Below are positions 31,707-45,628 of a DNA stretch of 64,000 bases, in pieces. How positions within the stretch are numbered: position 1 is the first letter of the stretch; each line of letters starts with the position of its first letter. A model generated the notes under the pieces. The model worked only from the letters and a program-made list of their open reading frames with translations. It was not told the DNA's origin and ran no database searches. A program made the position numbers and the translations under genes. The stretch comes from Streptomyces sp. ADI96-02 (GTDB lineage: Bacteria > Actinomycetota > Actinomycetes > Streptomycetales > Streptomycetaceae): NCBI RefSeq assembly GCF_003846185.1, contig NZ_ML123034.1, positions 1,416,727 to 1,480,726 on the forward strand. Direction: 5' to 3'.

Positions 31707-33293
31707 TCAGCGCAGCGAGCGCACGTCCAGGTAGCGCAGTACCCGGTCCACCACCTCGGGATCGGAACCGGCCTCGCTGCGTGCGGCCAGCACCTCGTGG
31801 CGGGCGGCGGACATCATCTCGCGCTGGATGCGGTTGACCGCCTTGAACCGCTGGGCCCGCTTCGCGTACGCCTCGCGCCGCTCCTCGTCGATCATGTCCG
31901 GGCTGATCCTCGCCCCGATGTCGTACGCGGCGCGCTGGAGGCGTTCCATCATCTCCTCCGGGAAGTCCTCGACCTCCTGGATCTCCTTGAGCCGGTGCTT
32001 GGCGGCTCTGGCCGCGCGGATGGCCAGGTCCCGTTCCAGGGCCCGTTCGGCCTCGGTGTCGGCGCCGACACCGAGCTTGCGCACCAGCCAGGGCAGGGTG
32101 AGCCCCTGGAAGACGAGCGTGGCCATGATCACCGCGAACGCGATGAAGACGATCTCGTCGCGGCCGGGGAAGGGCCGGCCGTCGTCCGTCTTCAGCGGGA
32201 CGGCGAGGGCCAGCGCGACGGAGGCCACTCCGCGCATCCCGGCCCACCACATGACCAGGGTCTCCCGCCAGCTGGTGGGGATCTCCTCGCTGACGTCCGG
32301 GCGGTTGTGCAGCCGTTTGGCGAGCCAGGTCGCCGGCAGCAGCCACATCAGCCGTACGCCGACGACGACCGCCACGACAGCGAACCCCCAGCCGAGCATC
32401 CGGAACTCGCGGCCGTCGGACGTACCGAAGACGCTGTTCAGTTCGAGCCCGATGAGTCCGAAGGCCACGCCGGTGACCAGGGTGTCGACGATCTCCCAGA
32501 AGCTGCGTCCGGTGAGCCGGCCCTGGACGTCGTCGGCGTCGGCCGTGTGCTCGGCGAGGAAGAGGGCGGTGGTCAGGACGGCGAGGACGCCGGAGCCCAT
32601 CAGCTCCTCGGCCAGCACGTAGCTGACGAAGGGCACCAGCAGCGTCAGGCCGACCTGGAGGGTCGCGTCGCCCAGCATCCCCATCAGCTTGAGGGTGGCC
32701 CAGCCGAGGGCGAGCCCGACGGCGACCGCGACGACGGCGGAGAGGACCAGCAGCCCGACGGCATCCGGCAGTGAGAAGGTTCCGCTGACCGCGGCGGCGA
32801 TGGCTGCGTGGTAGAGCACGATGGCGGTGACGTCGTTGAAGAGCCCTTCGCCCTCCAGGATCGAGATGAGCCGGCGCGGCAGCCCCACCGAACCGGCCAC
32901 GGCGCTCGCCGCCACCGGGTCGGGCGGGGCGACGAGCGCGCCGAGCGCGACGGCGGCGGCGACGGGCAGTCCGGGCACGATCGAGTTGGCCACCGCGGCG
33001 ACCGCGGCCGTGGTGACGAAGACCAGGGCGACGGCGAGCAGGAAGATGGGGCGCGTGTTGGCGGCGAACTGCCGCCAGGAGGTGCGCTGCACCGAGGCGT
33101 AGATCAGCGGCGGCAGCAGCGCGGGAAGGATGATCTCGGGCGGGATGTCGACGTCCGGCACGAACGGGGCGAACGCCATCGCGATCCCGATCAGCGTCAT
33201 CAGGATCGGTGCCGGCAGGCGCAGCCGCTCGCCCAGCGGCACCGTGACCACGGCTCCGAGCAGCAGCAGGAGCAGCAGTGCCATTTGTTCCAC
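31707..33293 (-). CDS. CPA1-family Na+/H+ antiporter
   Basis: A 528-residue protein with about 12 membrane helices and a C-terminal cytoplasmic helical tail of about 130 residues (AERALERDLAIRAARAAKHR onward). ALVAPPDPVAA and ILEGEGLFND are CPA1/NhaP signatures, with Asp residues for cation and proton exchange. It probably controls pH or Na+. The GTG at 33293 has GGAAGG 7 nt upstream. It converges on the MscS gene, so two ion-homeostasis genes are adjacent. Confidence 0.93.
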   Translation of the reverse strand: MEQMALLLLLLLGAVVTVPLGERLRLPAPILMTLIGIAMAFAPFVPDVDIPPEIILPALLPPLIYASVQRTSWRQFAANTRPIFLLAVALVFVTTAAVAAVANSIVPGLPVAAAVALGALVAPPDPVAASAVAGSVGLPRRLISILEGEGLFNDVTAIVLYHAAIAAAVSGTFSLPDAVGLLVLSAVVAVAVGLALGWATLKLMGMLGDATLQVGLTLLVPFVSYVLAEELMGSGVLAVLTTALFLAEHTADADDVQGRLTGRSFWEIVDTLVTGVAFGLIGLELNSVFGTSDGREFRMLGWGFAVVAVVVGVRLMWLLPATWLAKRLHNRPDVSEEIPTSWRETLVMWWAGMRGVASVALALAVPLKTDDGRPFPGRDEIVFIAFAVIMATLVFQGLTLPWLVRKLGVGADTEAERALERDLAIRAARAAKHRLKEIQEVEDFPEEMMERLQRAAYDIGARISPDMIDEERREAYAKRAQRFKAVNRIQREMMSAARHEVLAARSEAGSDPEVVDRVLRYLDVRSLR

Positions 33294-33448
33294 GGTGGCG
33301 CCTTCCGGAACGCGGGTCCGGGCCGTCTCCGGCCGGCGGGTTCCACCGGAGGTCGGCCGCTCAGGGCCCGGCCGGCTCGGCGGCAGGCCGGAGCCTCCAC
33401 CCTGCCACGCGGGGTCCGCGATCCCGGCGAGCCGCCCGCCGGCCGCCG

Positions 33449-33937
33449 TCAGACCGTCCCGAGGTCCCGCCGCATGGCCCGGTGCGGGATGCCCGCGTCC
33501 CGGAACTCGGGGCCGTACGCCACGTAGCCGAGCCGCTCGTAGAAGCCGAGGGCGTGCGTCTGGGCGTGCAGGTCCACGGCGGTGAGGCCCAGCTCGCGGG
33601 CCTGGTCCTCGATGGCCCGCACCAGCGCGGCTCCGACGCCGAGGCCGCGCGCCTCACGGGTCACCGCGAGGCGTCCGAGCGAGCCGACGGCCAGGTCGCC
33701 CCCGGTCTTCGCGGCGGCGTCCGCACCGTGCAGGAGGCGTCCCGTGCCGAGGGCGGTGCCGTCGGCGGCGATCGCCAGGACGTGGGCCGCGGTCGCGTCG
33801 TGGGCGTCGTACTCGATGTCCTCGGGCACCCGCTGCTCGGCGACGAAGACGTCCTTGCGGACCTGGAAGCAGGCTTGGAGGTCGCTCTCCTCCCGGGCCC
33901 GGCGGAGCGTGTACGCCGTGGGTGCGGGCGGGGTCAC
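33449..33937 (-). CDS. GNAT-family N-acetyltransferase
   Basis: A 162-residue acetyltransferase. The acetyl-CoA-binding motif A is [17 protein letters not shown] (the R-x-x-G-x-G pattern), and [14 protein letters not shown] is the C-terminal beta-bulge segment. N-terminal [21 protein letters not shown] is the ElaA-like signature. The substrate is unknown. The GTG at 33937 overlaps the rluD TGA (GTGA), so it is translated with rluD. Confidence 0.9.
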
Positions 33938-34875
33938 CGGCTCTCCGCGTCGATGGTGTCGAGGGCCTTGCGCAGGTCCGCCGGGTAGTCGCTGGAGAAC
34001 TCGACCCAGCGGCCGTCGCCCGGGTGCTCGAAGCCGAGGCGCACGGCGTGCAGCCACTGCCGGGTCAGGCCGAGCCGCTTGGCGAGGGTCGGGTCGGCGC
34101 CGTAGGTGAGGTCGCCGACGCACGGGTGGCGGTGGGCGGACATGTGGACCCGGATCTGGTGGGTGCGGCCGGTCTCCAGCTTGATGTCCAGCAGGCTGGC
34201 GGCGCGGTACGCCTCGATCAGGTCGTAGTGGGTGACGGAGGGCTTGCCCTCGGCGGTGACCGCCCACTTGTAGTCGTGGTTGGGGTGGCGGCCGATGGGC
34301 GCGTCGATGGTGCCGCTCATCGGGTCCGGATGGCCCTGGACGAGCGCGTGGTACTTCTTCTCGACGACCCGGTCGCGGAACTGGGCCTTGAGCAGCGTGT
34401 AGGCCCGCTCGGACTTGGCGACGACCATCAGTCCGGAGGTGCCCACGTCCAGGCGGTGCACGATGCCCTGGCGCTCGGCGGCCCCGGAGGTGGAGATCCG
34501 GTACCCGGCGGCGGCGAGGCCGCCGATGACGGTGGTGCCGGTCCAGCCGGGGCTGGGATGGGCGGCGACGCCGACCGGCTTCGCGATGACGACGATGTCC
34601 TCGTCGTCGTGGACGATCTCCATGCCCTCGACGGGCTCGGCGACGATCTGGACCGGAGGGGCCGCCCGAGGCATCTCCACCTCCAGCCAGGCCCCGCCGT
34701 GCACCCGCTCGGACTTCCCGGCCACCGAACCGTCCACCTGGACCTTCCCGGCGGCGGCCAGCTCGGCGGCCTTGGTGCGGGAGAAACCGAACATCCGGGA
34801 GATGGCGGCGTCGACGCGCTCGCCTTCCAGGCCGTCCGGTACGGGCAGGGTGCGGATCTCGGGGTGCGTACTCAC
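33934..34875 (-). CDS. rluD: RluD-type 23S rRNA pseudouridine synthase
   Basis: A 313-residue RluA-family enzyme that isomerises uridines, typically in 23S rRNA. An N-terminal S4 RNA-binding domain (about 18-75, [18 protein letters not shown]) precedes the catalytic domain with the Asp in [28 protein letters not shown] and VGDLTYGAD follow. The GTG at 34875 is 23 nt after the lspA stop. It stands in the usual lspA-rluD order and is coupled to the GNAT gene. RluD rather than another RluA paralogue is assigned by context. Confidence 0.92.
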
Positions 34876-34898
34876 CAGTCGAGTATGCCTTGCGCCCG

Positions 34899-35501
34899 CT
34901 AGTCCTTGTGCACGGTGCCGTCGGGGTCCAGGCCCTTGAAGGAGAGGATCACGATGAGGATGCCGCCGCAGACGATCGCGGAGTCGGCGAGGTTGAAGAC
35001 GGCGAAGTGCTTGGGGGCGATGAAGTCCACCACCGCGCCCTCGAACACGCCGGGCGTGCGGAAGATGCGGTCGGTGAGGTTGCCGAGCGCACCGCCCAGG
35101 AGCAGCCCCAGGGCGATGGCCCACGGCAGGCTGTAGAGCTTGCGCGCGAGCCGGAAGATGACCACGATCACGCCGGCCGCGATGACCGTGAAGATCACCG
35201 TGAACGCCTCGCCGAACCCGAACGCGGCACCCGGGTTGCGCAGCGCGCGGAACTGCAACCAGTCGCCGAAGATGTCGATCGGCGGCTGGTGCTCCAGCTT
35301 GGCGACCACGATCATCTTGCTGATCAGGTCGAACAGGTAGGCCACCACGGCGACGCCGAGGAGGACCAGGATCCTCCGCCTGCCCCGGCCGGGGCCCGCG
35401 CCGTCGACGCCGCCCTCGGCCGGCTGCTCGACGCCGACCTCGTCGGCCCCTTCAGCGTCGGGATTATCCGGCGTACCGATGATGCGCTCCGCCTCTGCCA
35501 C
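34899..35501 (-). CDS. lspA: Lipoprotein signal peptidase (signal peptidase II)
   Basis: A 200-residue membrane aspartyl protease that removes prolipoprotein signal peptides. Four helices are visible at about 44-62, 93-117, 123-142 and 170-190. The catalytic aspartates are in GNLTDRIF and FNLADS, with RNPGAAFGF and VVDFI as further signatures. A 40-residue acidic N-terminal extension is longer than in E. coli but common in actinobacteria. The GTG at 35501 has GAGGGA 7 nt upstream, and a TAGGTT hexamer lies just before it. Confidence 0.97.
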
Positions 35502-35559
35502 GTGAGTCCCTCAACCTAGGTGCCTGACTGAGCACGAGGGTACGGCACACCTGTGCGGA

Positions 35560-36336
35560 TCAGCCGCGCCGCTCCTGCTTCTGTTTGTCCTCCACGCAGA
35601 GGGTGGCGCGCGGGAACGCCTGCATACGGGCCTTGCCGATCGGTTTGCCGCAGACCTCGCAGAGGCCGTACGTGCCCGCCTCCAGCCGGGTGAGCGCCCG
35701 CTCGTTCTGCTCCAGCATCTCCTGGGCGTTGGCGGCGAGGGACAGCTCGTGCTCGCGGGTGATGTTCTTGGTGCCGGTGTCGGCCTCGTCGTCGCCCGCG
35801 CCGTCGCCGGAGTCCCGCATCAGCCCGGCCAGGGCCGCGCCCGAGGTCTCCAGCTCGGTGCGCAGCCGCATGATCTCGCTGGTGAGCAGCGTGCGCGCCT
35901 CGGTGACCTCCTCCTGCGTCCAGGGGTCCTCGCCGGGCCGTACCGCCAGATCGCCGGGCGCGGTCGCCCCGGCACGGGCGGGCGGCACGGGCGCCGTTCC
36001 CGCCGCTCCGGCGCCGGGACGACTCGCGCTCTTCTTGGCTACCACCGTGTGGGCTCCCGTCTGCTCGGCGGCCTGGGCCGCCCCCGTGGCCGTCGCTGCG
36101 GCCTTCTTCGAAGCCTTCTTGGCCGCGGTCTTCTTCGTGGTGCGCCCGCTCGCGGCGCTCTTGCCCGCGGCGGCGCTCCCGGGGGCCGCCTTGTGGGCCG
36201 CCGCCTTCTTCGTCGCCCTTTTCGCCACTTTCTTCGCCGCCTTCTTCACGGCCTTCTTCACGCCCTTGCCGACCGGTGGCTCCTCGGCGCCGTCGGGTCC
36301 GGCCGCGGTCTCTTCCGCCGTCTTCTTCGCCACCAT
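35560..36336 (-). CDS. TraR/DksA-family protein with Lys/Ala-rich N-terminal tail
   Basis: A 258-residue protein. The first 90 residues are a histone-H1-like Lys/Ala repeat region (for example KKAVKKAAKKVAKRATKKAA), probably DNA- or RNA-binding. The last 110 residues form the DksA coiled coil and zinc finger: TYGLCEVCGKPIGKARM then ATLCVEDKQ. The fourth zinc Cys of the CxxC...CxxC pattern is Asp here, so zinc binding may be weak. DksA-type proteins bind RNA polymerase, but activity for this form is unproven. The ATG at 36336 has AAGGGG upstream. It is divergent from ileS. Confidence 0.9.
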   Translation of the reverse strand: MVAKKTAEETAAGPDGAEEPPVGKGVKKAVKKAAKKVAKRATKKAAAHKAAPGSAAAGKSAASGRTTKKTAAKKASKKAAATATGAAQAAEQTGAHTVVAKKSASRPGAGAAGTAPVPPARAGATAPGDLAVRPGEDPWTQEEVTEARTLLTSEIMRLRTELETSGAALAGLMRDSGDGAGDDEADTGTKNITREHELSLAANAQEMLEQNERALTRLEAGTYGLCEVCGKPIGKARMQAFPRATLCVEDKQKQERRG

Positions 36337-36599
36337 GGCCGCGGCCCCTTCACATATTGTGATCTTGCTCGCGAATCGTGCTGGGACGATAAGTCGACCC
36401 CAGCTCCGCGGCAACGGGGCACGCCGCCGTTCCGCCTCTCCCCCGGACCTCAGGAGACGCGCCTGCCTCCGTTGTGCCCAACTCCCCGCCCGGTAATCCG
36501 CCGCCGCGCCGAGCGGGGAATTCCGCGGGCCGCCTCTGGCCATTCGGGTCACGGGGCGCCCGGCCGACGACCGGTCGGCCGTCGCCCGTACGGGCCCGT
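36337..36599. other. Divergent DksA-like / ileS promoter region
   Basis: 263 nt lie upstream of the T-box. CACATATTGTG (36351-36361), a CACA-TAT-TGTG palindrome, lies 15 nt before the DksA-like start. A TACACT hexamer at 36599-36604 is a candidate -10 for ileS, with no clear -35. Otherwise I see nothing in it. Confidence 0.4.
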
Positions 36600-36895
36600 A
36601 CACTGGCCCCAGCGAGAGGCATGGATGGGACGAGTAGCGTCGTACGCAGCCCGCAGCGACCCGGGGACGGTGGGAGCCCGGGGGCGTGCACGTCGTGAAG
36701 ATCACCCCGGAGCTGCCGGAAGAACGCTTTGGACCGTGGGCCCCGCCCACGGGTACAAGGTCAGTAGAACCGGCGTCGCGACCCAATGAGGGGGCCATGG
36801 GCGCACGCCCGCGGCCAAGGAGGGTGGTACCGCGGGAGCGCACGGCTCTCGTCCCTCCGACGGAAGTGGAAGACGTCCGCCGGAGGAAGCCGCAC
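36600..36895 (+). promoter_or_regulatory. ileS T-box riboswitch, translational type
   Basis: The leader senses uncharged tRNA-Ile. The T-box core AAGGAGGGTGGTACCGCGG lies at 36817-36835. A GAAGATCACC element carries the likely Ile specifier ATC at 36701-36703. Downstream, CCTCCG (36854-36859) can pair with the ileS Shine-Dalgarno CGGAGG (36881-36886), masking it, or instead CCCTCC can pair with GGAGGG (36819-36824) in the T-box when tRNA binds. No terminator U-tract is present, so control should be of translation, as known for actinobacterial ileS T-boxes. The 5' boundary is approximate. Confidence 0.9.
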
Positions 36896-39800
36896 ATGAC
36901 ATCGCCGCAGTACCGCCAGGTACCCGCCCAGGTCGACCTGCCCGCGCTGGAGCACGCCGTGCTCGACTTCTGGCGCGAGAGCGAGATCTTCGCCAAGAGC
37001 CTCGAACAGTCCGAGGGCCGCCCCGAGTGGGTCTTCTACGAGGGCCCGCCGACCGCCAACGGCATGCCGGGCGCCCACCACATCGAGGCCCGCGTCTTCA
37101 AGGACGTCTTCCCGCGCTTCCGCACCATGCAGGGCTACCACGTCGCGCGCAAGGCCGGCTGGGACTGCCACGGCCTGCCGGTCGAGCTCGCGGTCGAGAA
37201 GGAGCTGGGCTTCAACGGCAAGAAGGACATCGAGGCGTTCGGCATCGCCGAGTTCAACGCCAAGTGCCGCGAGTCGGTGACCCGGCACACGGACGCCTTC
37301 GCCGAGCTGACGACCCGCATGGGCTACTGGGTCGACCTGGACGACGCCTACCGCACGATGGACCCGGAGTACGTCGACTCCGTGTGGTGGTCGCTGAAGG
37401 AGATCTTCGCCAAGGACCTCCTCGTCCAGGACCACCGCGTCGCCCCCTGGTGCCCGCGCTGCGGCACCGGCCTCTCCGACCACGAGCTGGCCCAGGGCTA
37501 CGAGACGGTCGTCGACCCCTCGGTCTTCGTCCGCTTCCCCCTCACCTCCGGCCCGCTGGCCGGCGAGGCGGCCCTCCTCGTCTGGACGACCACCCCCTGG
37601 ACGCTGGTCTCGAACACGGCGGTCGCCGCGCACCCCGAGGTCCGCTACGTCGTCGTGACGGACGGCGAGGAGAAGCTCGTCGTCGCCGAACCACTCCTGG
37701 AGAAGGCGCTGGGCGAGGGCTGGGAGGCGACCGGCCCGTCCTTCACCGGCGCGGAGATGGAGCGCTGGACCTACGAGCGCCCGTTCACCCTCGTCGACTT
37801 CCCGGCCGAGGCGCACTACGTGGTGAACGCCGAGTACGTGACGACCGAGGACGGTACGGGTCTGGTCCACCAGTCCCCCGCGTTCGGCGCCGACGACCTC
37901 GTCGTCTGCCGCTCCTACGGCCTGCCCGTGGTGAACCCGGTACGCCCCGACGGCACCTTCGAGGAGAGCCTGCCGCTGGTCGGCGGCGTCTTCTTCAAGA
38001 AGGCCGACGAGGCGCTGACGGCGGACCTGGACGCGCGCGGCAAGCTCTTCCGCCACGTCCCGTACGAGCACAGCTACCCGCACTGCTGGCGCTGCCACAC
38101 CGCGCTCCTCTACTACGCGCAGCCGTCCTGGTACATCCGCACCACCGCGATCAAGGACCGGCTCCTGGAGGAGAACGAGAGGACCAACTGGTTCCCGGAC
38201 TCCGTCAAGAACGGCCGCTTCGGCGACTGGCTGAACAACAACGTCGACTGGGCGCTCTCGCGCAACCGCTACTGGGGCACCCCGCTGCCGATCTGGCGCT
38301 GCGAGGACGACCACCTCACGTGCGTGGGCTCGCGTGCCGAACTGACGGAACTCACGGGCCGGGACCAGTCGTCCCTCGACCCCCACCGCCCGTTCATCGA
38401 CGAGATCACCTTCACCTGCTCGCACGAGAACTGCCAACTGGAGGCGTACCGGGTCCCGGAGGTCATCGACGCCTGGTACGACTCGGGTTCGATGCCGTTC
38501 GCGCAGTGGGGCTACCCGTACAAGAACAAGGAGGTCTTCGAGAGCCGCTACCCGGCGCAGTTCATCTCGGAGGCCATCGACCAGACCCGGGGCTGGTTCT
38601 ACACGCTCATGGCGGTCGGCACCCTGGTCTTCGACAAGTCGTCCTACGAGAACGTGGTCTGCCTGGGCCACATCCTCGCCGAGGACGGCCGCAAGATGTC
38701 CAAGCACCTGGGCAACATCCTCCAGCCCATCCCGCTGATGGACCAGCACGGGGCCGACGCGGTGCGTTGGTTCATGGCGGCGGGCGGCTCCCCGTGGGCG
38801 GCACGGCGGGTGGGCCACGGCACGATCCAGGAGGTCGTCCGCAAGACGCTCCTCACCTACTGGAACACGGTCGCCTTCCAGGCCCTGTACGCGCGCACCT
38901 CCGGCTGGGCCCCCTCGGCGGCCGACCCGGCGCCGGCCGACCGCACGGTCCTGGACCGCTGGCTCCTGAGCGAACTGAACGCGCTGGTCGACCAGATGAC
39001 CGCCGCGATGGAGCGCTACGACACCCAGCGCGCCGGCAAGCTGCTCTCCGCATTCGTGGACGACCTCTCCAACTGGTACGTCCGCCGCTCGCGCCGCCGC
39101 TTCTGGCAGGGCGACAAGGCGGCCCTGCGCACCCTGCACGAGGTCGTCGAGACGGTGACCCGGCTGATGGCCCCGCTGACGCCGTTCATCACCGAGCGCG
39201 TCTGGCAGGACCTGATCGCGCCGGTCACCCCGGACGCCCCGCTGTCGGTGCACCTGTCCTCCTGGCCGAAGGCGGACCTCGGCGCGATCGACCCGGCGCT
39301 GTCCACGCAGATGGCGCTGGTGCGCAGGCTGGTGGAGCTGGGCCGGGCCACCCGCGCCGAGTCGGGCGTGAAGACCCGCCAGCCGCTGTCCCGCGCGCTG
39401 GTCGCGGCGACGGGCTTCGCCTCGCTCTCCCCCGAGCTGCGCGCCCAGATCACGGAGGAGCTGAACGTCTCCTCGCTGGCCTCGCTCTCCGAGGTCGGCG
39501 GCTCGCTGGTCGACACCACGGCGAAGGCCAACTTCCGCGCCCTGGGCAAGCGGTTCGGCAAGGGCGTCCAGGCGGTCGCCAAGGCGGTCGCGAACACGGA
39601 CGCCGCGGCGCTCTCCCTGGCCCTGCGCGAGGGCACGGCCTCGGTGGAGGTCGACGGCGAGCAGATCGCCCTCACCCCCGAGGAGGTCATCATCACCGAG
39701 ACGCCGCGCGAGGGCTGGTCGGTCGCCTCGGACTCGGGCGCGACCGTCGCCCTGGACCTGGAGATCACTCCGGAGCTGCGCCGCGCCGGCCTGGCGCGTG

Positions 39801-40045
39801 ACGCGATCCGCCTGATCCAGGAGGCCCGCAAGAACAGCGGCCTGGACGTCGCGGACCGCATCTCCGTCCGCTGGACGTCGACGGCCCCCGCCACGGCGGA
39901 GGCCCTGGCCGAGCACGCGGCGCTGATCGCGGACGAGGTGCTGGCGCTGGAGTACGCGGAGGGCGAGGCGGACGAGACGTACGGCGTCCCCTTCGAGGAC
40001 GAGGCCCTGTCGCTGACGTTCCGCCTGCGCAAGACGGAGCACTGA
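36896..40045 (+). CDS. ileS: Isoleucyl-tRNA synthetase (type-2, GXHH signature)
   Basis: A 1049-residue class-I synthetase that charges tRNA-Ile. The usual HXGH signature is replaced by Gly-Ala-His-His (residues 59-62, in PPTANGMPGAHHIEARVFKD), a form found in type-2 IleRS. KMSKS is GRKMSKHLGN (near 601). The CP1 editing domain lies between (TTTPWTLVSNTAVAAHP), and the anticodon-binding domain and C-terminal region follow. The ATG at 36896 is set by CGGAGGAAG, the element masked by the T-box. It converges with divIVA and ends in a strong hairpin. Confidence 0.97.
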   Translation: MTSPQYRQVPAQVDLPALEHAVLDFWRESEIFAKSLEQSEGRPEWVFYEGPPTANGMPGAHHIEARVFKDVFPRFRTMQGYHVARKAGWDCHGLPVELAVEKELGFNGKKDIEAFGIAEFNAKCRESVTRHTDAFAELTTRMGYWVDLDDAYRTMDPEYVDSVWWSLKEIFAKDLLVQDHRVAPWCPRCGTGLSDHELAQGYETVVDPSVFVRFPLTSGPLAGEAALLVWTTTPWTLVSNTAVAAHPEVRYVVVTDGEEKLVVAEPLLEKALGEGWEATGPSFTGAEMERWTYERPFTLVDFPAEAHYVVNAEYVTTEDGTGLVHQSPAFGADDLVVCRSYGLPVVNPVRPDGTFEESLPLVGGVFFKKADEALTADLDARGKLFRHVPYEHSYPHCWRCHTALLYYAQPSWYIRTTAIKDRLLEENERTNWFPDSVKNGRFGDWLNNNVDWALSRNRYWGTPLPIWRCEDDHLTCVGSRAELTELTGRDQSSLDPHRPFIDEITFTCSHENCQLEAYRVPEVIDAWYDSGSMPFAQWGYPYKNKEVFESRYPAQFISEAIDQTRGWFYTLMAVGTLVFDKSSYENVVCLGHILAEDGRKMSKHLGNILQPIPLMDQHGADAVRWFMAAGGSPWAARRVGHGTIQEVVRKTLLTYWNTVAFQALYARTSGWAPSAADPAPADRTVLDRWLLSELNALVDQMTAAMERYDTQRAGKLLSAFVDDLSNWYVRRSRRRFWQGDKAALRTLHEVVETVTRLMAPLTPFITERVWQDLIAPVTPDAPLSVHLSSWPKADLGAIDPALSTQMALVRRLVELGRATRAESGVKTRQPLSRALVAATGFASLSPELRAQITEELNVSSLASLSEVGGSLVDTTAKANFRALGKRFGKGVQAVAKAVANTDAAALSLALREGTASVEVDGEQIALTPEEVIITETPREGWSVASDSGATVALDLEITPELRRAGLARDAIRLIQEARKNSGLDVADRISVRWTSTAPATAEALAEHAALIADEVLALEYAEGEADETYGVPFEDEALSLTFRLRKTEH

Positions 40046-40057
40046 CCCGCACGACCG

Positions 40058-40097
40058 GTGAAGGGCCCGGCCGGACGCCTCCGGCCGGGCCCTTCAC
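40058..40097 (+). terminator. ileS terminator
   Basis: A perfect 18-bp stem (40058-40075 and 40080-40097), 13 nt after the ileS stop. Confidence 0.85.
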
Positions 40098-40116
40098 GCT
40101 TCCCACCGCGACGGAC

Positions 40117-40255
40117 TCCAGCCCCGGTCCCGGCCACTTCCAGCCCCGGTCCCGGCCGACTCCAGCCCCTCCGGCGCTTGAGGAGCGGGGCCCGGGGCAG
40201 AGCCCCGGTTTCGGGAAGGGGCGGGCAGGGGAGCAGCCCGCCGCAGGCGCCCCAC
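40117..40255. repeat. Intergenic repeat element of the kind dispersed in Streptomyces
   Basis: Two near-identical copies of TCCAGCCCCGGTCCCGGCC (40117-40135 and 40139-40157) lead into TCCAGCCCCTCCGGCGCTTG and AGGAGCGGGGCCCGGGGCAG, then GAGCAGCCCGCCGCAGGCGC. I recognise the latter stretches as sequences scattered between genes in many Streptomyces genomes. It lies between the ileS and divIVA terminators. No ORF is seen. Confidence 0.6.
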
Positions 40256-40260
40256 CGCAC

Positions 40261-40306
40261 GGCAGAGGGCCGGGCCCCGGGAAACCCCGGGGCCCGGCCC
40301 TCTGCC
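40261..40306. terminator. divIVA terminator, bidirectional
   Basis: A perfect 20-21-bp stem (40261-40281 and 40286-40306) with a 4-nt loop, between ileS and the convergent divIVA stop. Confidence 0.85.
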
Positions 40307-40341
40307 TGCCGACGGCTACGCGCTCAGCGAGCGCGAACCGC

Positions 40342-41487
40342 TCAGTTGTCGTCCTCGTCGATCAGGAACCCACGCATCGGCGACGGCGCCTGCTGCATCG
40401 GCTGCGGCGCCTGCGGCCGAACCGGCGCCATCGGCTGCGTCATCGCGGGCGACATCTGCTGCTGGGTGCCGTAGGACGGAGCACCGCCCATCGACTGGCC
40501 GCCGCCCATCTGCTGGCCGCCGTGCCCACCGTGGTTGGAGCCGCCCATGGAGTGGCCCATGGCACCCGCACCGGCCGGAGCCAGCGAGGGCGACGGCGGC
40601 AGCGAAGCGGCGGCCGGGGTCCGCGGCGGGGCGAGCGAGTCGTCCGCCTGGGTCTCCAGCTGACGCAGCTGGCTCTCCAGGTAGGACTTCAGGCGCGTCC
40701 GGTACTCGCGTTCGAAGCCGCGCAGGTCCTCGACCTTGCGCTCCAGCGTCGCGCGGGCCGACTCCAGCGAGCCCATCGCCACACGGTGCTTCTCCTGCGC
40801 GTCCCGCTCCAGCGCGTCCGCCTTGGCACGCGCGTCGCGCTCCAGACCCTCGGCGCGGCTGCGGGCCTCGCCGACGATCTTGTTGGCCTCGGAACGGGCC
40901 TCCGCGATCGCCTGGTCGGCGGTCTGCTGCGCGAGCGACAGGACACGCGCGGCGCTGTCGCCGCCGGGGCCCTGGCTCTGCTGCTGCATCTGCGGGGGCT
41001 GCTGCTGCATCTGCATCTGCTGCATCTGCTGCTGCTGCGGGTTGTGTCCCATGGGGCCGCCCATCGGGCCGCCCTGCATCGGGCCGGGGCCGTGCGGGCC
41101 CTGCGGACCGGGGCCATGACCACCCTGGGGGCCGTGACCACTGGGACCGGCGGGCAGCTGCGGCGCGCCACCGGGCAGTTGGGGCGGACCCATCTGCGGG
41201 GGCTGCTGCTGCACCGGCGGACCGGATATGGCGGCGGGAACGGGAGCCCCGGGGCGGTCCTGCTGCTCCGGAGGCTTGCGCATGCCCTGTTGCTGCTGCT
41301 GGTTCTGCGCGGCGGCGCGCGTCGCCGCGGCCAGCTTGGCGCGCAGGTCCTCGTTCTCTCGGAGCAGGCGGGTCAGCTCCGATTCGACCTCGTCGAGGAA
41401 GGCATCGACCTCGTCCTCGTCATAGCCTTCTCGGAGGCGGACGGTCGTGAACTGCTTGTTCCGCACGTCCTCGGGGGTCAGCGGCAT
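40342..41487 (-). CDS. divIVA: Polar-growth protein DivIVA (Wag31)
   Basis: A 381-residue cytoskeletal coiled-coil protein that marks hyphal tips and directs polar wall synthesis; essential in Streptomyces. The N-terminal membrane-targeting segment is MPLTPEDVRNKQFTTVRLRE, followed by a first coiled coil (about 30-65). A Gln/Gly/Pro/Met-rich linker (about 66-190), a long second coiled coil (about 195-300) and a disordered Gly/Met tail ending FLIDEDDN follow. The ATG at 41487 has GGTGAAGAAG upstream. It is the last gene of the dcw run. Confidence 0.97.
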   Translation of the reverse strand: MPLTPEDVRNKQFTTVRLREGYDEDEVDAFLDEVESELTRLLRENEDLRAKLAAATRAAAQNQQQQQGMRKPPEQQDRPGAPVPAAISGPPVQQQPPQMGPPQLPGGAPQLPAGPSGHGPQGGHGPGPQGPHGPGPMQGGPMGGPMGHNPQQQQMQQMQMQQQPPQMQQQSQGPGGDSAARVLSLAQQTADQAIAEARSEANKIVGEARSRAEGLERDARAKADALERDAQEKHRVAMGSLESARATLERKVEDLRGFEREYRTRLKSYLESQLRQLETQADDSLAPPRTPAAASLPPSPSLAPAGAGAMGHSMGGSNHGGHGGQQMGGGQSMGGAPSYGTQQQMSPAMTQPMAPVRPQAPQPMQQAPSPMRGFLIDEDDN

Positions 41488-41536
41488 CTCTTCTTCACCT
41501 CTACGTAGTCGTCGGCAGTCGGCAAGACCGTATCGC

Positions 41537-41821
41537 TCACAACCTGACCACAACGGCGATCAGGATGTAGACGATGATCATCAGAACGAAGAAGGACAGG
41601 TCGAGTGCCACGCCCCCGAGACGCAGCGGCGGAATGAACCGCCGCAGGAGCTTGAGCGGTGGATCGGTGACAGTGTAAGTGGCCTCAAGTACGACCACCA
41701 TCGCCTTGCCGGGTTGCCATGAACGTGCGAACTGGAAGACGTAGTCCATGACCAGCCGGAAGATCAGCACGATGAGGAAACACATCAGCGCGATATAGAC
41801 CACATCCCGTGCGACGCCCAT
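41537..41821 (-). CDS. yggT: YggT-family membrane protein (YlmG)
   Basis: A 94-residue protein with two membrane helices (about 8-28 and 72-92). LEATYTVTDPPLKLLRRFIPP, between them, is the YggT signature. YlmG/YggT genes stand with sepF in many Gram-positive bacteria and are implicated in nucleoid or division organisation; the mechanism is unknown. The ATG at 41821 has GGGAAG upstream. It sits between sepF and divIVA. Confidence 0.93.
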   Translation of the reverse strand: MGVARDVVYIALMCFLIVLIFRLVMDYVFQFARSWQPGKAMVVVLEATYTVTDPPLKLLRRFIPPLRLGGVALDLSFFVLMIIVYILIAVVVRL

Positions 41822-41911
41822 GTCTCGCGCTTCCCTCTCCCCTGGCTCTCGTAGCTCCGGCCTCGCGGCCGGCACCGGCCTCCCGGCCGGGTCGTTCCCG
41901 GTGTCGTGTTC

Positions 41912-42541
41912 TCAGCTCTGGTTGAAGAATCCGCCCTCTGCGATGCGGGCCTTGTCCTCCGCCGTGACATCGACGTTAGCAGGCGACAACAGGAACACCT
42001 TCTGCGTCACGCGTTCAATGCTGCCATGGAGACCGAAGACGAGTCCCGCGGCAAAGTCGACAAGTCGCTTTGCGTCCGTATCGTCCATCTCCGTGAGATT
42101 CATGATCACCGGAGTGCCCTCACGGAAGTGTTCCCCGATGGTACGGGCCTCGTTGTAGGTCCTGGGGTGCAGCGTGGTGATGCGGTAGGGCTCCCGCTCG
42201 GACACGACCTTGGGCATGATCACCGGTGCGTTCTTCTCCATGTTCGGGCGTTCAGGTGTGATGGATGCCACGGGGGCGATCCGGGCGGGTCGGCTGCTTT
42301 CCGCGGGGAGCTGAACGGGCTCCCGTTGCGCGGGTGGTTGCACCACTCGCACCGGTTCATCCCTTTCGCGCTCCCGCTCCCGTTCGCGCTCCACCTGATG
42401 GGGGGGCTGATGCCGCCGCCGGTCGCGCTCGGGCTCCGGCTCAGGTTCGAATTCGTCGTCGGGGTCGAACCCCGGACCGTCGTACCCATCGTCCTCCACG
42501 AGGCCGAGGTAGACCGCCATCTTGCGCATCGCGCCGGCCAT
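41912..42541 (-). CDS. sepF: Cell-division protein SepF
   Basis: A 209-residue FtsZ-associated membrane-binding protein that replaces FtsA as Z-ring anchor in actinobacteria. The N-terminal amphipathic helix is [15 protein letters not shown]. An unusually charged linker (about 25-95) includes an alternating Arg-Glu run near residues 50-60. The C-terminal SepF fold (about 115-200) has [20 protein letters not shown] and [20 protein letters not shown]. The ATG at 42541 has CGGAGGA upstream. It is the only visible Z-ring tether here, as no ftsA is present. Confidence 0.95.
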
Positions 42542-45538: not shown

Positions 45539-45628
45539 CGAACACGCCGAACCTCCCGTTTTTCTTTTCACCCTATGTGATCACCCGTAGCGCTGACCAA
45601 CCAGGGTGCTGGCCAGCACAAATGCCCG

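Follow-up and report, generated by a model that had tools for sequence, protein, structure and literature searches.

An apparently repeated, paired exchange of zinc-site residues in DdbA-like proteins of Streptomyces

The stretch of Streptomyces sp. ADI96-02 DNA analysed here (64,000 nucleotides, hereafter the window) encodes a protein in which a Lys/Ala-rich N-terminal tail is joined to a DksA/TraR-like domain whose fourth zinc position holds an aspartate in place of a cysteine. A sequence-only reading of this locus took the zinc site to be incomplete and the combination to indicate a nucleoid-associated RNA polymerase-binding protein rather than a typical DksA. What kind of protein is encoded here, and does the aspartate abolish the zinc site or form part of it? 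Our answer, to which we give a probability of roughly two in three, is that the protein is an orthologue of DdbA whose tail would condense DNA, whose domain would enter the RNA polymerase channel and whose site of three cysteines and one aspartate (Cys3-Asp) would keep the fold. The features on which the argument turns are collected in Table 1.

Table 1. Features of the ddbA-like locus (positions are those of the window; residues are those of the ddbA-like protein).
Feature	Positions	Strand	Remarks
lspA	34899..35501	-	next gene downstream of the ddbA-like gene; read from translation
ddbA-like gene (SCO2075 type)	35560..36336	-	258 aa, ATG start, stop included
Second zinc-site half, C247-V-E-D250	35587..35598	-	Asp250 codon GAC, 35587-35589
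First CxxC, C226-E-V-C229	35650..35661	-	coupled residue V228 at 35653-35655
Predicted DksA-like domain, residues 131-258	35563..35946	-	two long helices, zinc finger, C-terminal helix; PF01258, AlphaFold2
Coiled-coil tip DxxDxG (D183, D186, G188)	35773..35790	-	counterpart of DxxDxA in DksA/TraR
Lys/Ala-rich, histone-H1-like tail, residues 21-110	36007..36276	-	by composition
Near-palindrome TCACAATATGTGA, candidate BldD box	36350..36362	.	letters as on the minus strand; 13 bases separate it from the ATG; fits the box consensus
ileS	36896..40045	+	divergent, upstream of the ddbA-like gene; source of the species tree

The reading frame is intact in the window, from the ATG at 36336-36334 to the stop codon at 35562-35560, and a GAAGGGG stretch resembling a ribosome-binding site lies upstream of the start. 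The genes are ordered lspA, ddbA-like gene, ileS, and an rluD-type pseudouridine synthase gene, read from its translation, is found further downstream, past lspA. Orthologues in other genera and families have the same neighbours, with lspA present at 38, rluD at 39 and ileS at 31 of 40 loci, some of them cut by contig ends. Relatives of the gene, paralogues included, occur in 321 of the 394 genomes of the class and in all 81 genomes of Streptomycetaceae, and named Streptomyces loci were found with domains 93-95% identical to that of the window's protein.

DdbA is equated with SCO2075 in the accessible part of a 2025 review (PMC11942623) and is described in excerpts of another article as a histone-H1-like N-terminal part followed by a C-terminal DksA part (PMC9043899). 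According to the passages available from reviews, it is expressed in sporulation, affects nucleoid compaction and acts with ppGpp on RNA polymerase (PMC9043899; PMC11229371; PMC11942623). It is thus a bacterial protein proposed to couple chromosome packing with the control of RNA polymerase. Both parts, the Lys/Ala-rich N-terminal tail and the C-terminal DksA/TraR domain, are present in the window's protein. In S. coelicolor, SCO2075 presumably lies between lspA and ileS. Because the architecture of tail and domain and this presumed gene order match, the window's gene is best filed as a DdbA orthologue; its fourth zinc position is Asp and its first CxxC includes a Val, SCO2075 itself being compared by description only. 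The kind of protein put forward in the sequence-only reading therefore agrees with what these excerpts say of DdbA (PMC11942623; PMC9043899), and it is an already described kind, not a new inference.

Within the tail, the 90 residues from 21 to 110 comprise 20 lysines, 30 alanines and a single acidic residue, for a net charge of +22; the length of about 90 residues first given for the Lys/Ala-rich N-terminus is right, but the stretch begins about 20 residues in. Against the histone H1-like profile NF038053 the tail reaches 16.9 bits (cut-off 80), and its likeness to these proteins is one of composition only. No solved structural relative of the tail was found at E 0.01. Taking at least 9 lysines in 60 residues before the domain as a Lys-rich stretch, we found one in 190 of the 208 Streptomyces loci that could be judged, which form a redundant set, in 17 of 35 loci of other Streptomycetaceae and in 53 of the 66 evaluable loci of other families (80 in total, 14 being too short). 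The tail is widespread among orthologues, not universal, and since so many loci of other families carry it too, it is no chance feature. In the mechanism that we propose, this tail would be disordered and would bind and condense DNA without sequence preference.

The C-terminal domain is recognized by the Pfam profile PF01258 (DksA/TraR zinc finger) with 41.4 bits for a cut-off of 24.9, and falls below the cut-offs of both NCBIfam DksA equivalogs, TIGR02420 (52.8 bits vs 115.5) and NF033459 (53.8 vs 105). An AlphaFold2 model of the domain (mean pLDDT 92), obtained with an alignment of 65 orthologue domains, found its best solved matches in P. aeruginosa DksA2 and E. coli DksA (Foldseek E 9.1e-7 and 1.7e-5). 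The VIA comparison gave Z 13.0, rmsd 2.7 and 119 aligned residues for DksA2 (4ijj) and Z 12.6, rmsd 2.8 and 120 aligned residues for E. coli DksA (1tjl), followed by unrelated helical proteins from Z 9.1 down, with the caution that helical proteins with Z below about 13 may share merely a common arrangement. Because Z values of helical proteins are not decisive alone, the fold assignment is carried by the sequence matches to the same DksA2 and DksA chains. The domain is thus predicted to fold like DksA, one of the reasons why the earlier step from a missing cysteine to a function other than that of a DksA is not supported. Once in the secondary channel of RNA polymerase, as we propose, the domain would link DNA packing to transcription.

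At the tip of the coiled coil, the motif DxxDxA, presented as critical in DksA/TraR in the accessible part of one paper (PMC9239242), is replaced by DxxDxG, whose D183, D186 and G188 are invariant in the 65 aligned orthologue sequences. The window's protein thus shares with E. coli DksA the predicted fold, the acidic coiled-coil tip and the spacing of the zinc positions, and differs from it by its long Lys/Ala tail, the glycine of the tip, the aspartate at the fourth ligand position and two residues at ppGpp-binding positions. In E. coli DksA, R91 and K98 bind ppGpp. They align with N203 and Q210 of the window's protein, and Q210 (35707-35709) is an invariant glutamine in the 65 actinobacterial orthologue domains, which makes an E. 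coli-type ppGpp contact doubtful. This would go against the published role of ppGpp in DdbA action, unless ppGpp acts otherwise, through another contact.

The last CxxC reads C-V-E-D, as the sequence-only reading had it, and the zinc positions are C226, C229, C247 and D250. The likeness to PF01258 by profile stands; the 'C4-type' label of that family does not, the ligands being Cys, Cys, Cys and Asp. A sequencing error hiding a cysteine, the weak point which that reading had named itself, or a decayed gene has next to no chance of explaining the aspartate: GAC is two bases away from TGC, the frame is intact, and of the 392 genomes of the genus that were searched, 95 have the Asp form (pattern Leu-Cys-Val/Leu-Glu/Asp-Asp-Lys-Gln). 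Of the other genomes, 282 had the Cys form and 15 neither pattern, and none had both; the raw Asp-pattern matches numbered 96 genomes, one of which (G434, the only genome to match both patterns) was discounted because its Asp match falls in an unrelated reading frame.

A wider survey of 348 sequences gave 346 readable motifs and 274 distinct domain DNAs, from loci that are not a random draw: L070-L099 and L148-L187 were chosen by the Asp pattern, L100-L129 and L188-L227 by the Cys pattern, and 38 further loci (37 of Streptomyces and one of Actinacidiphila) are biased to close relatives. The Actinacidiphila locus, L022, is grouped with Streptomyces in the tail, pN/pS, inverted-repeat, BldD-box and partner-residue tallies, the grouping being by locus number. 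Two sequences were left out of the domain count, an unrelated protein (L187) and a frameshifted assembly (L071). The latter, from genome G504, is an Asp-form orthologue with the frameshift in its zinc finger, in an assembly that is 90% complete.

The four ligands of the 274 distinct domains read CCCC in 197, CCCD in 75 and CCDC in 2. Every departure from four cysteines (77 of 274) is an aspartate, which is a possible zinc ligand, no other residue occurring at the four positions, and the remaining three cysteines are intact in 75 of 75 CCCD forms. Gly and Tyr, the intermediates that lie one base from either state, were seen in none of the 274 domains at the fourth ligand. The residue preceding the second cysteine is Val, Ile or Met in all 75 CCCD forms and is apolar in 5 of the 197 CCCC forms, the others having mostly Asn or Ser at this partner position and, in rare cases, a different polar or charged residue or else Gly or Ala. 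Both CCDC domains have Ser there, with no apolar residue. The coupling with the partner thus concerns the fourth ligand only and runs in one direction, given the five four-cysteine (Cys4) forms that are also apolar. In our mechanism, the residue inside the first CxxC would be the partner change that the swap to Asp needs or favours. Exchange of the third cysteine was seen in another family, in the orthologues L250, L268 and L341 (genomes G093 and G046), which read ATLDVACK and lack an apolar partner. No Asp zinc ligand in DksA or DdbA was recognized among the literature matches listed, and the 2013 article by Aldridge et al., reportedly the original paper on DdbA, may mention it.

The history of the exchange was followed on a species tree of ileS codons with 168 rows, 69 of them Asp forms, on which the fourth ligand changed at least 9 times. 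Eight independent pairs could be drawn on supported branches, and the partner changed in the same way in 8/8 pairs in 167 of 200 draws; the remaining 33 draws gave seven pairs changing in the same way and one tie (median sign test p 0.0078). An earlier tree of 148 rows required a minimum of 6 changes, whereas 200 shuffles required 46 on average and never fewer than 39. Where Cys forms sit inside groups of Asp forms (L011 of S. jumonjinensis, L215 and the L024 group), they have the polar partner. The direction of some ligand changes is uncertain because a clade of 27 Cys forms takes different positions in the two trees. On the sequences compared, the new element is this repeated, paired zinc-ligand exchange; the clean coupling of two sites makes it a compact case of a structural metal site that has evolved repeatedly and in paired steps.

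Could the Asp allele instead have arisen once and spread by recombination? A possible trace is seen in L151 (genome G234), which reads CVED where three of its relatives in the ileS tree read CVDC; the 3' end of its domain is nearest to an Asp form (L180, distance 0.069) and the 5' part to Cys forms (L129, distance 0.152), but the 108-base 3' stretch of this comparison carries little signal. A single Streptomyces Asp clade with L151 inside is rejected (AU p 9.6e-46), and without L151 only just so (AU p 0.0365), the latter leaving some room for a single origin. The aspartate nevertheless has three different sequence contexts, reading CVED in Streptomyces and CLDD in genus g143, while G027, which belongs to another family, has CKED, so that spread from a single origin seems improbable. 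CLDD was read in 10 of 14 sampled g143 genomes, 13 of the last 20 loci having been chosen after two Asp forms appeared in this genus, and the relatives L022 and L332 have CLDC.

Whether the Asp forms bind zinc is a separate matter, since a conserved fold is no proof of bound zinc: the fold of DksA2 works without it, and this protein is reported in the available parts of two papers to be zinc-free and still to work as a DksA (PMC9213440; PMC9239242). Loss of zinc in the Asp forms, with the fold held by a packed core to which the Val, Ile or Met belongs, would follow the example of P. aeruginosa DksA2, which is the closest solved fold and likewise departs from Cys4, and a Cys to Asp change paired with a polar to apolar one could fit a new core. 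We judge such a loss unlikely. DksA2 reads C-T-C-A in the alignment, with the non-ligands Thr and Ala at zinc positions, whereas the window's protein retains three cysteines and an aspartate, as do all distinct CCCD forms, and non-ligands are absent from the four positions throughout the survey. The constraint on the zinc-finger stretch is also strong, with a pN/pS of 0.054 in Asp forms and 0.083 in Cys forms (at most 400 sampled pairs each); by this measure the stretch is at least as constrained in the former as in the latter.

With three cysteines kept, the fourth residue always a potential ligand and tight conservation along the stretch, a Cys3-Asp site is the most economical reading. We thus infer a working site in which Asp250, together with C226, C229 and C247, should hold zinc and keep the fold, and the claim that the site is incomplete is not borne out, the replacement being always Asp and the other cysteines never lost with it. 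A natural parallel is provided by the Ros/MucR fingers, in which, in the part of the source available, Asp replaces a structural zinc Cys and coordinates the metal by a single oxygen, metal binding being retained; these Cys-Asp-His2 fingers have a different fold and a different ligand set (PMC5745721).

With one thiolate fewer, the Cys3-Asp site would have a changed metal affinity and would likely be less sensitive to oxidation than the Cys4 form that other species carry. In Salmonella DksA, the four cysteines are described, in the accessible text, as a redox switch acting with zinc release (PMC4815678), and the zinc site of DdbA corresponds to this thiol switch. By this analogy, the swap could lower the redox sensitivity of DdbA, a Cys3-Asp site being possibly less redox-sensitive. 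It is conceivable, although rather doubtful in our view, that the two residues form a switch by which lineages flip between a redox-responsive Cys4 site and a less responsive Cys3-Asp site, and so retune the path from oxidative stress to transcription and nucleoid packing.

The exchange may also be simply tolerated, with no functional consequence and perhaps with zinc kept, the two-site pattern reflecting stability only; we regard this as a real possibility, though less likely than not. Both forms occur in related species, the tree needs changes into as well as out of clades, and the form is unlinked to paralogues or leader as far as seen. The joint change of both sites in supported independent pairs and the lack of Gly or Tyr intermediates speak against such neutrality, although neither shows a function. 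A second DksA/TraR gene was considered as a cover for the changed site and rejected: a profile search of the window's own genome at E 0.001 gave just one PF01258 match, and both forms elsewhere carry more (two copies in G039 and three in G173 among Asp forms, two in G018 and three in G112 among Cys forms), no link between form and extra DksA/TraR genes being seen in the genomes compared. With many paired Cys4 and Cys3-Asp versions in related species, a role of the thiol site in stress sensing is testable by allele exchange.

The leader of the gene was also inspected. No known RNA element reached its gathering score in 33000-42000, and neither a sigma-70-type promoter nor a terminator was found in 36300-36920. 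The near-palindrome of Table 1 fits the BldD box, given as TNAC(N)5GTNA in the accessible part of its source (PMC4151990). In a survey in which 65 of 246 loci had no placeable start, 115 of the 130 distinct leaders from Streptomycetaceae showed a fit within 60 bases of the start, usually at -26 or -25. They comprise 109 of the 121 leaders grouped with Streptomyces and 6 of the 9 others, and several of the 15 leaders lacking a fit have a spacer one base shorter. The pattern is loose, with 4 matches in the window vs 3.5 expected, and the whole leader is conserved, so that this candidate box is a lead only, suggesting control by the c-di-GMP-dependent BldD; such putative control would fit a developmental timing of DdbA. 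No link between BldD and DdbA was recognized among the literature matches listed. A second fit of the TCAC...GTGA form, TCACCCTATGTGA (45568-45580), lies upstream of ftsZ in the stretch that separates this gene from ftsQ, and FtsZ is among the named targets of BldD. The leader that carries TCACAATATGTGA also contains an inverted repeat, ATCGT-N6-ACGAT, at 36375-36390, and a repeat of this kind with a spacer of 5-7 bases was found in 87 of 154 upstream stretches of Streptomyces, 6 of 27 of other Streptomycetaceae and none of 68 of other families.
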